Shown: piece by piece, positions 13,705-18,052 of the stretch
How positions within the stretch are numbered: position 1 is the stretch's first letter
How the letters are laid out: every line of letters begins with the position of its first letter
DNA from: an uncultured Lachnospiraceae bacterium
Lineage (GTDB): Bacteria; Bacillota; Clostridia; Lachnospirales; Lachnospiraceae
DNA length: 41,232 nt
Assembly: GCA_946615865.1 (NCBI GenBank)
Contig: CAMOIJ010000022.1
Coordinates: 1-41,232 of the forward strand
Reading direction: 5' to 3'
Translations under genes and position numbers: made by a program
The notes under the pieces: model-generated
Database searches by the model: none
Told to the model about the DNA's origin: nothing
Seen by the model: the letters and a program-made list of their open reading frames with translations, nothing else

Positions 13705-15708
13705 ATGATGAACTACAGGAAGTACATGCGTCAATATTTTCTCCCTCCGGAAGAGTGTCTGGACTGGGCGAAAAAGGATCATATCGAGAAGGCCCCGATC
13801 TGGTGCAGCGTCGACCTGCGCGACGGCAATCAGGCCCTGATCGAGCCTATGAGCCTCGAAGAGAAGATCGAATTCTTCCGCATGCTGGTGGACATCGGCT
13901 TTAAGGAGATCGAAGTGGGGTTCCCTGCTGCTTCGGAGACCGAGTACGACTTCCTTCGCGCTCTCATCGAGAGAAACATGATCCCGGAGGATGTCACGAT
14001 CCAGGTCCTGACACAGGCCAGGGAGCACATCATCCGCAAGACTTTTGAGGCGGTCAAGGGAGCACCGAAGGCGGTGGTGCATCTTTATAATTCCACTTCC
14101 GTGGCGCAGCGGGAACAGGTCTTTAGAAAGAACAAAGAGGAGATCAAGAAACTTGCGGTGGACGGAGCGAAGCTCCTCAAGGAACTGGCGGACGAGACCG
14201 ACGGCAACTTCATGTTCGAATACAGCCCTGAGAGCTTCCATGGGACCGAGGTGGAGTATGGGCTGGAAGTCTGCAACGCGGTGCTGGACGTCTGGAAACC
14301 TACCCCTGAGTGGAAAGCCATCATCAACATCCCCGCTACGGTGGAGACGGCTATGCCGCACATTTTCGCCTCCCAGATCGAGTATCTTAACAAGAATATG
14401 AAATACAGGGACGGCGTCGTCCTCAGCCTTCATCCGCACAACGACCGCGGCTGCGGCGTAGCGGACACAGAACTCGGCATCCTTGCAGGCGCAGACCGCG
14501 TCGAAGGCACGCTGTTCGGAAACGGCGAGAGAACCGGAAACGTCGATCTGGTCGCTGTAGCGATGAACCTTTTCTCCTACGGGATCGATCCGGAACTGGA
14601 TTTCTCCAATATGCCGCAGATCCGCGAAAAATATGAGAGACTGACTGGAATGGATGTCCATCCCAGGCAGCCTTATGCAGGAGATCTGGTCTTCAGCGCG
14701 TTTTCCGGCTCCCACCAGGACGCGATCTCCAAGGGCATGGCCTACAAGGAGAAGAACGATCCCAACAAGTGGACAGTTCCTTATCTTCCCATCGACCCGC
14801 AGGATGTCTCGAGGACATACGATTCAGACGTTATCCGCATCAACAGCCAGTCCGGAAAGGGCGGCGTAGCATATGTGCTGAGGCAGAACTACGCGATCGT
14901 GCTGCCTGAGAAGATGAGAGAGGAAGTCGGTTACGCCGTGAAGCAGGTTTCGGACGAGACTCACAGCGAGCTTGCGCCTCAGGCTGTTTACGAGATCTTC
15001 ACAGACAGATATGTGGACTACACGCCTCACTTTACGATCCCGGAGTGCCATTTCCGCCAGGCAGACGGCATTATGGCAGAGGCGACGATCGCGGCCGGAG
15101 ACAACAGGACTGTCGTGGACGCGAACGGAAACGGCCGTCTGGACGCGGTCAGCAATACCATCAAGCAGTATTACGGGATCAGCTATGAGCTCTCCACTTA
15201 CGAGGAGCATGCGCTTTCCAGAGGCTCTTCCTCCAAAGCTATGGCTTATGTCAGCGTCCTGTGCAATGGCAAAACATACTGGGGCGTAGGCATCCACGAG
15301 GATATCATTCACGCTTCGATCAACGCTTTGGTCGTAGCGGTCAATAAGCTCCCGCAGCTGCAGGACAGCGCGACGGAGAAGGACAACAGGCTGATCGCAA
15401 TGCTCAACTACATCCAGGCCAATTATCAGACAGTTACACTCGAGGACATGGCCAGGGAATTTCATCTCTCCACGCCGTATATCTCCAAGTTCATCCGCGA
15501 GAAATCCGGCAAGACCTTCGGCGAGCAGGTCACGTCAGTCCGCATGAAGAGGGCCAAGACGCTGCTCAGAAACGGCAATATGACGATCGAGAATATCTCT
15601 TATTCCATCGGTTATCCCAATGCGGAGCATTTCTCAAGGGTATTCAAGAAGACCTTTGAGGTGTCTCCGGCACAGTACAGAAAAATAGCCACACGCCACG
15701 CCGGGTGA
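13705..15708 (+). CDS. leuA: 2-isopropylmalate synthase fused to a C-terminal AraC-type DNA-binding domain
   Basis: The first 555 or so residues are a complete LeuA, which condenses 2-ketoisovalerate and acetyl-CoA in leucine synthesis. Visible are VDLRDGNQAL with the catalytic Arg39-Asp40, the metal motif LHPHNDRG (His243, His245), GNGERTGN (272-279), and the C-terminal allosteric domain (about 440-550, RGSSSKAMAYVSV). The chain continues without a break into about 105 residues with two helix-turn-helix motifs (VTLEDMAREFHLSTPYISKFIREKSG and MTIENISYSIGYPNAEHFSRVFKKTFEVSP), a clear AraC DNA-binding domain at about 560-664. Ordinary LeuA of this class ends near 560. ATG 13705 has AGAGG eight bases upstream; the gene ends at its own terminator. 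One protein may both make isopropylmalate and control genes. Confidence 0.93.
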   Translation: MMNYRKYMRQYFLPPEECLDWAKKDHIEKAPIWCSVDLRDGNQALIEPMSLEEKIEFFRMLVDIGFKEIEVGFPAASETEYDFLRALIERNMIPEDVTIQVLTQAREHIIRKTFEAVKGAPKAVVHLYNSTSVAQREQVFRKNKEEIKKLAVDGAKLLKELADETDGNFMFEYSPESFHGTEVEYGLEVCNAVLDVWKPTPEWKAIINIPATVETAMPHIFASQIEYLNKNMKYRDGVVLSLHPHNDRGCGVADTELGILAGADRVEGTLFGNGERTGNVDLVAVAMNLFSYGIDPELDFSNMPQIREKYERLTGMDVHPRQPYAGDLVFSAFSGSHQDAISKGMAYKEKNDPNKWTVPYLPIDPQDVSRTYDSDVIRINSQSGKGGVAYVLRQNYAIVLPEKMREEVGYAVKQVSDETHSELAPQAVYEIFTDRYVDYTPHFTIPECHFRQADGIMAEATIAAGDNRTVVDANGNGRLDAVSNTIKQYYGISYELSTYEEHALSRGSSSKAMAYVSVLCNGKTYWGVGIHEDIIHASINALVVAVNKLPQLQDSATEKDNRLIAMLNYIQANYQTVTLEDMAREFHLSTPYISKFIREKSGKTFGEQVTSVRMKRAKTLLRNGNMTIENISYSIGYPNAEHFSRVFKKTFEVSPAQYRKIATRHAG

Positions 15709-15793: not shown

Positions 15794-15822
15794 TTGAATT
15801 GATAGTGTACTTTGTATATAAT
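15794..15822 (+). promoter_or_regulatory. Promoter of the HPr-LDH fusion gene
   Basis: TTGAAT (15794-15799) and TATAAT (15817-15822) are 17 bp apart. The -10 is perfect. The expected start gives a leader of about 55 nt. No cre-like site was recognised by eye around it. Confidence 0.8.
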
Positions 15823-15882
15823 GACAATAGCATATTATGTATGAAGCTATCCACCAAGCTTATAAAAAGAAGGGAAAAAGAA

Positions 15883-17181
15883 ATGAAAGACCTGCAGTAT
15901 ACTGTCAAGAATTCGCTCGGTATTCATGCGCGTCCCGCGGCACTTCTTGCCCAGGCATGCACCAATTTCAAGAGTGCAGTCATGATCGAGTGCAATGGTA
16001 ATGTTGCCTCCGGCAATAACGTCCTTCAGATCCTCGCTCTTCACGCGGCCAAGGGTTCTGTCCTGAACATTACTGCTGACGGTCCCGATGAGGAAGAGGC
16101 GATCACGAAGATCCAGGAAGTGCTCAGGGAAATCGCTCCCAAGGCCAAGAAGAATACGGTCCTCAGGGTCGCGTTTTTCGGCACCAAGGATTATGACCGC
16201 ATTTTCTTCAGCGAACTCTCCAGAGACAAGGGAGAGGGCACTTACAATGTTGACATCAAGTATTTCAACAGCCGTCTGACCATTGAGTCTGCAAACCTGG
16301 CTAAGGGTTACGACGCGGTCTGCATTTTCGTCAATGACGAAGCGCCCCGTGAAGTTATTGAGATCCTGGCGGAGGGCGGCGTTAAGCTCATTCTTCTTCG
16401 CTGCGCAGGATTCAACAACGTTGACGCCAAGGCTGCCGCAGAGTGCGGAATCACTGTTCTTCGTGTCCCCGCCTATTCCCCCTATGCAGTAGCTGAGCAC
16501 GCAATGACGATCCTTCAGGCAGCAAACCGCCGCATTCACAAGTCTTACATCAAGGTTCAGGACAACAACTTCGCGCTGAGCGGACTTCTGGGACTGGATC
16601 TTCACAACAAGGTAGCCGGTATCATGGGCACCGGCAGGATCGGCCAGATCATGGCCAATATCTGCAAGGGTTACGGCATGACCGTTCTGGGATGGGATGC
16701 TTTCCCGAATATGGCTCTTGAGGAGAAGGGACTTTTGAGATATGTCTCCAAGGAAGAGCTCCTTCAGAAGGCGGATCTCATCTCCCTGCACGCTCCGCTG
16801 GTCATGGGCCCGAACGGAACATATCACCTGATCGACGACAATGCGATCGCCATGATGAAGAACAACGTCATGCTCGTCAATACCTCCCGCGGACCTCTTG
16901 TAGACTCCGAAGCGCTGATCAGAGGCCTTAAGGCGAACAAGTTCCACGCTGTGGCGCTGGACGTTTACGAGGGCGAGGATGCCAACGTCTACAATGACAG
17001 ATCCGATGAGATGATCGACACAGATATCGTAGCAAGACTTACAATGTTCCCGAACCTGATACTGACTTCTCACCAGGCGTTCTTCACCAGAGAAGCGCTG
17101 CAGGCTATCGCTGCAGTCACTATGGAGAATGCGAGAAACTTCAACGAAGGACTTCCTTACGGAATGTCAGAGGTGAAGTGA
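15883..17181 (+). CDS. HPr phosphocarrier domain fused to D-lactate dehydrogenase
   Basis: Residues 1-85 or so are a PTS HPr domain: YTVKNSLGIHARPAALLAQ carries the phosphorylatable His15 with Arg17, and the fold continues to about EEEAITKIQEVL. The position equal to the regulatory Ser46 is Asn46 (SGNNVLQILAL). From about residue 94 (VLRVAFFGTKDYDRIFF) it is a full D-2-hydroxyacid dehydrogenase of the D-lactate type: GTGRIG (249-254), substrate Arg173 in LLRCAGFNN, VNTSRGPLVD, LDVYEGE and catalytic His397 in LTSHQAFF. It should reduce pyruvate to D-lactate with NADH. I chose ATG 15883 because AAGGG is eight bases upstream and the HPr fold starts there. It has its own promoter and terminator. 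Whether His15 phosphorylation changes dehydrogenase activity is inference. Confidence 0.93.
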   Translation: MKDLQYTVKNSLGIHARPAALLAQACTNFKSAVMIECNGNVASGNNVLQILALHAAKGSVLNITADGPDEEEAITKIQEVLREIAPKAKKNTVLRVAFFGTKDYDRIFFSELSRDKGEGTYNVDIKYFNSRLTIESANLAKGYDAVCIFVNDEAPREVIEILAEGGVKLILLRCAGFNNVDAKAAAECGITVLRVPAYSPYAVAEHAMTILQAANRRIHKSYIKVQDNNFALSGLLGLDLHNKVAGIMGTGRIGQIMANICKGYGMTVLGWDAFPNMALEEKGLLRYVSKEELLQKADLISLHAPLVMGPNGTYHLIDDNAIAMMKNNVMLVNTSRGPLVDSEALIRGLKANKFHAVALDVYEGEDANVYNDRSDEMIDTDIVARLTMFPNLILTSHQAFFTREALQAIAAVTMENARNFNEGLPYGMSEVK

Positions 17182-17208
17182 AGAAAACCTGTAAATGAGT
17201 AAACAGAT

Positions 17209-17251
17209 GCCGCTGCAATTACCGATTCCGGTAATTGCAGCGGCGTTTTTT
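17209..17251 (+). terminator. Terminator after the HPr-LDH gene
   Basis: GCCGCTGCAATTACCG (17209-17224) and its perfect complement (17229-17244) form a 16 bp stem with loop ATTC, followed by six T's. It is one of the strongest terminators in the window. Confidence 0.95.
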
Positions 17252-17415: not shown

Positions 17416-17490
17416 GCACAGTACTTGAGCAGATGACGGGCGGCTGTAAAGCGGCTTTAAAATATGTTTGATGTGCTGTGAACCAACTCT

Positions 17491-17518
17491 CCTCCTGTAC
17501 AACAAAGGAGGTTTTTTT
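17491..17518 (+). promoter_or_regulatory. Riboswitch expression platform: hairpin that sequesters the thiT ribosome site
   Basis: CCTCCT (17491-17496) pairs with AGGAGG (17506-17511), and seven T's follow immediately before the thiT ATG at 17519. The 3' arm is itself the Shine-Dalgarno sequence. The same hairpin can therefore block translation or act as a weak terminator when TPP is bound. Confidence 0.65.
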
Positions 17519-18052
17519 ATGTCCAAAAGTATCAAAGTTCTCGTCTTTAGCGCAATGTGCATCGCACTGGCCAGTGTGACCAGTATGATCAAGGTGTTTG
17601 AGTTCCCCACCGGGGGGTCCATTACACTGGCGTCTACGTTGTTCGCGACCCTTCCGGGCTTCTTTTTCGGCCCTGCGGTGGGGATCGCGGCGGGATTTGC
17701 ACACGGGATCCTTCAGTTCTTCCTTGGCCCCTATATTCTGACCCCTGTGCAGGTCTTTATTGATTACGGCCTTGCATTTGCGGCTTTCGGACTCTCCGGA
17801 TTCTTTGCAGGCCAGAAGTTCGGATACCAGAAGGGCTACATTGCCGCATGTATCGGACGCTGGTTTTTCGCTTTTCTTTCCGGCTGGATCTTTTTTGGCG
17901 AATATGCCTGGGAGGGATGGAACGCGGCAGCTTATTCCGCAGTGTACAATATCATTTACATTGCGGGCGAGGCGGTGATCGTATTGATCCTCATCAGTAT
18001 TCCGGTAGTATCCGAGGCACTGAACAGAGTTAAAGCTATGGCTCTGCAGTGA
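17519..18052 (+). CDS. thiT: Thiamine ECF transporter S component ThiT
   Basis: ThiT is the thiamine-binding membrane subunit that uses a shared EcfA1-EcfA2-EcfT module for uptake. The 177-residue protein has about six hydrophobic helices. Family features include the N-terminal VLVFSAMCIALASVTSMIKVFEFPTGGSITLAST (L1 region), GIAAGFAHGILQFF and the aromatic-rich AEYAWEGW-like EYAWEGWNAAAYS loop that lines the thiamine pocket. The TPP riboswitch directly upstream confirms the substrate. ATG 17519 follows AAAGGAGG with a T-run between. The EcfAAT genes it needs are about 9 kb upstream in this window. Confidence 0.94.
   Translation: MSKSIKVLVFSAMCIALASVTSMIKVFEFPTGGSITLASTLFATLPGFFFGPAVGIAAGFAHGILQFFLGPYILTPVQVFIDYGLAFAAFGLSGFFAGQKFGYQKGYIAACIGRWFFAFLSGWIFFGEYAWEGWNAAAYSAVYNIIYIAGEAVIVLILISIPVVSEALNRVKAMALQ

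Follow-up and report, generated by a model that had tools for sequence, protein, structure and literature searches.

The window, by which we mean the whole stretch of 41,232 nucleotides analyzed here from an uncultured Lachnospiraceae bacterium, carries a gene whose 432-residue product joins a complete HPr domain, through a short linker, to a complete LdhA-type D-lactate dehydrogenase. The gene is a single open frame on the + strand, from an ATG at 15883 to a stop at 17181, and the fusion is a true conserved unit rather than an accident of assembly. We propose, as a possibility that we place just short of an even chance, that phosphorylation of His15 in the fused HPr domain regulates lactate formation, which would give this D-lactate dehydrogenase a PTS sensor within its own chain. 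The features of the gene and its flanks are these:

15794..15822, + strand: promoter-like site, TTGAAT-17-TATAAT (pattern scan, 10/12 matches; weak evidence alone)
15870..15874, + strand: Shine-Dalgarno-like AAGGG, 8 bases before the ATG (sequence)
15883..17181, + strand: HPr-D-lactate dehydrogenase fusion gene, 432 aa (open reading frame, Pfam, homologues)
15895..16128, + strand: HPr domain, residues 5-82 (PF00381, E 3.3e-23)
15925..15927, + strand: His15 codon CAT, the HPr phosphorylation site (sequence; invariant in 95/95 distinct domains)
15931..15933, + strand: Arg17 codon CGT (sequence; invariant in 95/95)
16018..16020, + strand: Asn46 codon AAC, where classical Firmicutes HPr has Ser46 (sequence; position 46 in 95 domains: Asn 85, Asp 8, Glu 1, Ser 1)
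16129..16164, + strand: linker, residues 83-94 (alignment, dN, pLDDT dip to 66 at residues 81-90)
16165..17178, + strand: LdhA-type D-lactate dehydrogenase, residues 95-432 (PF00389/PF02826; nearest solved chains are D-lactate dehydrogenases)
16888..16890, + strand: Arg336, catalytic Arg by position (invariant in 24/24 and 50/50 aligned fusions)
16975..16977, + strand: Glu365, catalytic Glu by position (invariant in 24/24 and 50/50 aligned fusions)
17071..17073, + strand: His397, catalytic His by position (invariant in 24/24 and 50/50 aligned fusions)
17205..17248, + strand: strong intrinsic-terminator-like hairpin (pattern scan; 20 pairs, 10 G-C)

The unbroken HPr-dehydrogenase frame reported in a preliminary description of this DNA was confirmed by the open reading frame and by Pfam domains that all scored above their cut-offs. 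The ATG at 15883 was favoured over an upstream TTG on two grounds, namely the ribosome-site-like stretch and the alignment of homologues, which begins at that ATG. The same description had given the gene a promoter, ribosome site and terminator of its own; pattern matches are present for each, but the scans for promoter-like sites (4 found versus 1.9 expected) and terminator-like hairpins (3 versus 1.8) are weak evidence alone. Within codons 79-97, 30 of 50 fusions contain no ATG, GTG or TTG, so that these 30 probably do not produce a dehydrogenase free of the HPr domain.

Profile searches identified both parts of the protein. Residues 5-82 matched PF00381 (HPr) with 82 bits against a cut-off of 23, and the NCBIfam HPr model TIGR01003 scored 75.9 bits against a cut-off of 47.9, the only one of the 25 NCBIfam models listed to reach its own cut-off. 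The two D-2-hydroxyacid dehydrogenase models, PF00389 and PF02826, exceeded their cut-offs within residues 122-423, and the nearest solved chains to residues 95-426 were LdhA-type D-lactate dehydrogenases of Fusobacterium (5z21, E 1.7e-94), E. coli, Salmonella and Pseudomonas. The best-scoring NCBIfam D-lactate dehydrogenase models (NF000492, NF009127) remained far below their equivalog/exception cut-offs. As in LdhA-type domains, there is a GxGxxG motif (GTGRIG, residues 249-254), an acidic NAD residue (D272) and an Arg/Glu/His set (R336, E365, H397), to all of which we assign catalytic or NAD-binding roles by motif; D272, like the three residues at catalytic positions, is invariant in 24/24 and 50/50 aligned fusions. 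Homology to these enzymes points to pyruvate as the probable substrate and D-lactate as the product, and the F. nucleatum D-lactate dehydrogenase, approximately 45% identical, has a broad 2-ketoacid specificity (abstract of PMC4230899).

An AlphaFold2 model built from 50 aligned fusions (mean pLDDT 83.7, pTM 0.66) showed the expected secondary structure for HPr, a dip in pLDDT at residues 81-90 and low confidence at residues 221-230 and 361-380, with confidence too low to give the orientation of the domains or to reveal the contact between His15 and the active site for which the preliminary description had suggested looking. All 50 Foldseek matches listed were D-2-hydroxyacid dehydrogenases, the best being that of F. 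nucleatum, and identity to LdhA-type D-lactate dehydrogenases was 42-46%.

Whole-protein searches found the full-length fusion in at least 12 of 25 genomes of the genus and in at least 13 of 397 genomes of the family (one per genus, 13 genera), the window's own genome included in each case; these counts come from the matches listed, so that more divergent fusions may be missed. Among the matches listed, none of the 16 genomes from the other families of the order had the fusion, and at E 1e-100 it was found in 3 of 398 phylum genomes, again including its own. A scan of named genomes, using residues 1-140 of 17 aligned fusions as query and keeping the best 80 of at least 452 relatives, yielded 80 loci that all match residues 1-140, four of them cut by a contig end; the 76 uncut loci all read HPr and dehydrogenase in one frame. 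The stop between two separate genes that the preliminary description had named as evidence against a fusion was thus seen in none of the 24 aligned fusions and none of the 76 uncut named loci. Isolates with the fusion include Kandleria vitulina, Sharpea porci, Eggerthia catenaformis, Lactimicrobium massiliense, Floccifex porci, Faecalibacillus intestinalis, Faecalibacillus faecis, [Clostridium] spiroforme, [Eubacterium] cellulosolvens and Lachnospiraceae strains, and MAG records labelled Oscillospiraceae and Selenomonadaceae have it as well. The same architecture was therefore found across Lachnospiraceae genomes, as had been anticipated, but it is not confined to this family. In 14/14 genomes searched, the fusion was its own only relative at E <1e-60. 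One of the 76 uncut loci (L177, 8001-9203), in a MAG labelled Selenomonas bovis, encodes a fusion of only 401 aa without the SHQAF motif.

That a sequencing, assembly or gene-calling error joined ptsH to ldhA is vanishingly improbable, because full-length copies occur in independent MAGs and isolates of several families, with 60-99% identity among the 24 aligned; nothing was found in favour of an artefact, and we consider this explanation refuted.

A quick maximum-likelihood tree built from the dehydrogenase part placed 52 fusions on one side of a single branch (SH-aLRT 100), with 19 standalone lactate dehydrogenases on the other, in a sample whose fusions were found by similarity to the window fusion and a tree with 19 open forks. 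Within this sample a single origin of the fusion appears to hold; a distant second origin could exist elsewhere. Fusions labelled Lachnospiraceae, Erysipelotrichaceae/Coprobacillaceae and Oscillospiraceae were interleaved in the tree, which suggests that the fusion moved between families. No standalone relative of more than 61% identity was present among the matches listed in the genus and family searches, and therefore no loss of the HPr domain was seen.

Both the HPr domain and the dehydrogenase are under purifying selection. In 66 pairwise comparisons among 12 congeners, dN/dS ranged over 0.04-0.23 in HPr and 0.02-0.19 in the dehydrogenase, rough values since dS was not computable in 11 HPr pairs and one dehydrogenase pair and was <1 in only 3 of 66 HPr pairs; in these three, dN/dS was 0.08-0.09. 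The dN of HPr exceeded that of the dehydrogenase in 66/66 pairs, and the dN of the linker was above that of both domains in 57/66.

The HPr domain has retained its phosphorylation site. PF00381 was matched by 50/50 fusions at E 0.001, and all three Pfam domains were found in all 50 aligned members. The preliminary description had called His15 and Arg17 intact, and this was upheld by their codons in the window and by both residues being unchanged in 95/95 distinct fused HPr domains; the conservation of His15 is partly selected for in the named-genome scan, where one of two patterns contains HARP, and both residues are equally unchanged in the 24/24 fusions from the whole-protein search, which are free of this selection. 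Loss of His15 in most homologues, which had been proposed as grounds for abandoning the idea, was thus not observed in any of the 95. His15, Ala16, Arg17 and Pro18 are fixed across these domains at a mean mutual identity of only 55%.

Position 46, by comparison with classical HPr, has changed. It is Asn, Asp or Glu in 94 of 95 fused domains and Ser in one. With Asn46, the window fusion lies outside the branch of HPr-kinase substrates defined by Ser46, and it shows the reverse of the Crh pattern (His15 lost, Ser46 kept), having kept His15 and lost Ser46. The suggestion that position 46 is never Ser, leaving only the His15 input, therefore stands for the window and for 94/95 domains but fails for a single fusion (L036, genome G288). 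This protein, the most diverged of the 24 aligned fusions at 60% identity, has Ser46 and His15 together, perhaps the ancestral state.

To place the fused domain among other HPr proteins, we classified 107 free HPr-family proteins from 24 fusion genomes and 12 named genomes, a set that leaves out three unalignable proteins (L004, L274, L275) and 25 + 6 weak HPr matches, 24 of the 25 aligning only from profile position 19, past the His15 site. Of these proteins, 44 have the His-Ala-Arg motif (28 without Ser46, 16 with it), 16 have another His15 motif (13 with Ser46, 3 without), 26 are Crh-like (Glu/Asp/Ala at position 15, Ser46) and 21 are other. We rejected the notion that only the fusion has lost Ser46, since 28/44 free His-Ala-Arg HPrs lack this residue too; in Lachnospiraceae the proportion is 26/34, so that there the fusion follows the local pattern. 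To judge from L001, L111, L118, L085 and others, Lachnospiraceae appear to split the roles of HPr between His-Ala-Arg proteins, mostly without Ser46, and Crh-like proteins with Glu, Asp or Ala at position 15 and Ser46, and in this family Ser46 signalling may take place on the Crh-like proteins. In the window's own genome, a Crh-like protein shares a contig (C57) with hprK. Isolates of the Erysipelotrichaceae/Coprobacillaceae type, including [Clostridium] spiroforme, have a free HPr with both His15 and Ser46 in 8/8 cases, and position 46 of their fusions is Asn (seven) or Asp (one), a combination that favours the earlier idea of His15 as the only input in those isolates. Kandleria and Sharpea have a second His15 HPr with Lys46, and several genomes of the Erysipelotrichaceae/Coprobacillaceae type encode a second HPr-like protein that retains Ser46 but has Tyr at position 15 (L258, L264, L266, L269, L272). 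One further open frame (L276, genome G039) was considered as a second HPr-dehydrogenase fusion and rejected, its HPr part following PRD-like residues with no stop between; this HPr may still be a separate protein made from a GGAGG-like start.

A phosphocarrier of this kind could act in trans, as an extra HPr that feeds EIIA proteins, with the dehydrogenase as a passenger or an oligomeric scaffold. The invariant His15 and Arg17 fit such a role, and among the HPr-family proteins found in the window's own assembly none but the fusion has His15. However, 21 of 24 fusion genomes encode a separate His-Ala-Arg HPr. Sixteen of these 21 have it no more than 400 bases from the Enzyme I match, another three up to 3.5 kb away along the contig that carries this match, and two (G050, G180) on a different contig; moreover, the lower dN of the dehydrogenase in every congener pair argues against a decaying passenger. 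We consider the phosphocarrier role in trans highly unlikely, and the fusion as the cell's only His15 HPr was rejected on the same count of separate HPrs. The three fusion genomes without a free His-Ala-Arg HPr are G000 (the window's own assembly) and G021, which are incomplete and lack Enzyme I, and G006. The last, 93% complete, encodes Enzyme I, the fusion and a His-Leu-Gly variant (L087, L133, L076); a contig edge may explain its gap, the Enzyme I match starting at profile position 29. The window's own assembly (88% complete) yielded neither Enzyme I nor a further His15-bearing HPr, its three other HPr-family proteins all lacking this residue (L004 as judged by eye). This is probably a technical gap due to incompleteness, because a relative with a 99% identical fusion (G003) has ptsH and ptsI side by side.

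Enzyme I, the presumed source of phosphate in our proposal, was present in 22/24 fusion genomes of the genus and family set and in a further 14/14 (36/38 in all). Co-occurrence with Enzyme I was rejected as evidence because controls have it as often (51/54), namely 11/13 fusion-less congeners, 29/29 genomes with a standalone lactate dehydrogenase and 11/12 without a match at 1e-60. Enzyme I releases one pyruvate per phosphotransfer, and pyruvate is by textbook knowledge common to Enzyme I and the dehydrogenase. The HPr domain might thus serve to dock the dehydrogenase to Enzyme I, pyruvate being turned into lactate right where it is released, with His15 kept because docking and phosphotransfer go together and no allostery involved. 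The invariant active-site motif of the fused HPr and the presence of Enzyme I in nearly all fusion genomes agree with such a tether, but several fixed residues near His15 are unlike those usual in free His15 HPrs, and a competing free HPr is usually present (21/24). We regard tethering as decidedly unlikely.

These unusual residues are A20, A23, Q24, C26, V47, L51 and A55, together with A42 and G44, all nearly fixed in fused HPr and unlike the commonest residues of 40 free His-Ala-Arg HPrs; several lie near the face by which classical HPr meets Enzyme I and EIIA. Since they differ from those of free His15 HPrs, the face of the fused domain may serve a partner other than Enzyme I. The dehydrogenase has 25 positions of its own, each with a residue shared by at least 95% of 52 fusions but by no more than 20% of 16 standalone lactate dehydrogenases; among them are W271, A273, P275, an inserted G283 and G364, beside the NAD site or the catalytic Glu. 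Both parts have thus evolved as a distinct subfamily, and our guess is that these fusion-specific positions form an interface.

A particular interface, suggested by the fixed A20, A23, Q24, C26, V47, L51 and A55, would also suit an HPr domain that is not phosphorylated but binds or stabilises, its motif kept for folding or for another partner. Consistent with this, no recurrent PTS neighbour was seen among neighbour families in 41 fusion loci or among HPr genes in the flanks of 80 named loci. The only recurrent family in the 41 loci was that of ABC-type ATPases, a single connected cluster present in 11 loci, and the family after it was shared by four; among the named loci, a further HPr gene lay in the flanks of only two (L183, L184), approximately 5 kb away and of the type without His15. 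Even so, HPr-like paralogues without His15 are kept in the same genomes, which argues that the fold does not require this residue, and His15-Ala-Arg-Pro is nevertheless fixed in 95/95 fused domains. We find a purely binding or stabilising module unlikely.

Regulation of lactate formation through His15 would account for a domain that has lost the usual HPr-kinase residue and kept His15, as indicated by the non-Ser position 46 in 94/95 domains, even beside a free HPr with Ser46. At a high PEP/pyruvate ratio, Enzyme I would phosphorylate His15 of the fused domain, and during rapid uptake of PTS sugars the domain would be mostly unphosphorylated. The two states would differ in the packing of HPr against the dehydrogenase or its tetramer, with pyruvate reduction more active at high sugar flux and held back by phosphorylation of the domain, the direction being the least certain step. 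Phosphate exchange between the fused domain and the free HPr/EIIA pool would also be possible. An action of HPr on an LdhA-type enzyme is plausible because D-lactate dehydrogenases of this type can be allosteric (abstract of PMC4230899) and because, according to passages of PMC8167557, free HPr of E. coli regulates energy metabolism through its interaction with PykF and PfkB. Against this reading speak the lack of a gene family recurring beside the fusion other than ABC-type ATPases, the fixed HPr residues that depart from those of free His15 HPrs, the higher dN of HPr than of the dehydrogenase, and the absence of Enzyme I from the window's own, probably incomplete, assembly. More tentatively still, at somewhat less than an even chance, the fusion may be a covalent wire from the PTS to fermentation, in which Enzyme I would set a dedicated HPr domain and the PEP/pyruvate ratio would directly control lactate output with no involvement of HPr kinase, in a unit that would have a single origin and appears to have been passed on among Firmicutes of gut and rumen that form lactate.

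If such gating is true, it would constitute a direct control of fermentation by the PTS in bacteria of the gut and rumen, a single protein holding both input and output, and the fusion could tie lactate production directly to the rate of sugar uptake in many of them. An L-lactate dehydrogenase match at E 1e-30 was absent from 16 of 34 fusion genomes (34 of 38 assessed), so in these genomes the fusion may be the main lactate dehydrogenase; the window's own genome has an L-lactate dehydrogenase match.

Comparison with known systems shows which features of the fusion are shared and which are its own. Like Firmicutes HPr (ptsH), it matches PF00381 and TIGR01003 and has His15, Ala16, Arg17 and Pro18, but it is joined to an enzyme, lacks Ser46 in 94/95 domains and has fixed residues of its own. 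An HPr domain inside a larger polypeptide is found also in FruB/FPr and DhaM, in which the partners of HPr are other PTS domains, whereas here the partner is a fermentation enzyme; the FPr model PRK11109 gave the window protein 46 bits against a cut-off of 302. HPr within larger PTS proteins is thus already known, and what is unusual here is a lactate dehydrogenase as partner. In LacS-type transporters an EIIA-like domain is phosphorylated by HPr, so that a PTS domain is fused to its target and tuned by PTS phosphorylation; the domain is EIIA rather than HPr and the target a transporter rather than a dehydrogenase, making this an analogy only. The allosteric LdhA-type D-lactate dehydrogenases of Fusobacterium nucleatum, E. 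coli and Pseudomonas aeruginosa have the fold and catalytic positions of the fusion, but their solved chains are without an HPr domain and the fusion clade has its 25 fixed positions that are rare in standalone enzymes.

The abstract of PMC4230899 describes allostery in the LdhA-type D-lactate dehydrogenases of three Gram-negative bacteria, with fructose 1,6-bisphosphate activating two of them. Regulation of PykF, PfkB, NagB and Adk by free HPr is reported for E. coli (passages of PMC8167557); there, too, HPr acts on enzymes of carbon metabolism, but non-covalently and on different enzymes, and the terms LdhA and lactate dehydrogenase are absent from the main text of that paper. In passages of a 2HADH survey (PMC6303947), HPR is used as an abbreviation for hydroxypyruvate or hydroxyphenylpyruvate reductases. 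The statement in the preliminary description that it knew of no described HPr-lactate dehydrogenase fusion agrees with the titles and abstract starts of open-licence PubMed Central papers, in which none was found among the matches listed. In low-methane sheep, passages of PMC5069950 report a 12-fold higher expression of the Sharpea azabuensis D-lactate dehydrogenase gene and place PTS genes among the most expressed of this species; judging from S. porci, this dehydrogenase gene is presumably the fusion.

In the window the fusion gene is not adjacent to ptsI, and in another genome (G419) an HPr with His15 and Ser46 is encoded approximately 9 kb from the fusion. Directly upstream (13705-15708, + strand) lies another odd fusion of 667 aa, a 2-isopropylmalate synthase (HMGL-like, IPMS_D2, LeuA_dimer) with a C-terminal AraC-type helix-turn-helix (PF12833, residues 582-660), relatives of which occur at similar length upstream of the HPr-dehydrogenase fusion in one locus (L152) and as shorter proteins downstream of it in two (L158, L161). 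Downstream, at 17468-18052 on the + strand, is a gene for a thiamine transporter (Thia_YuaJ).
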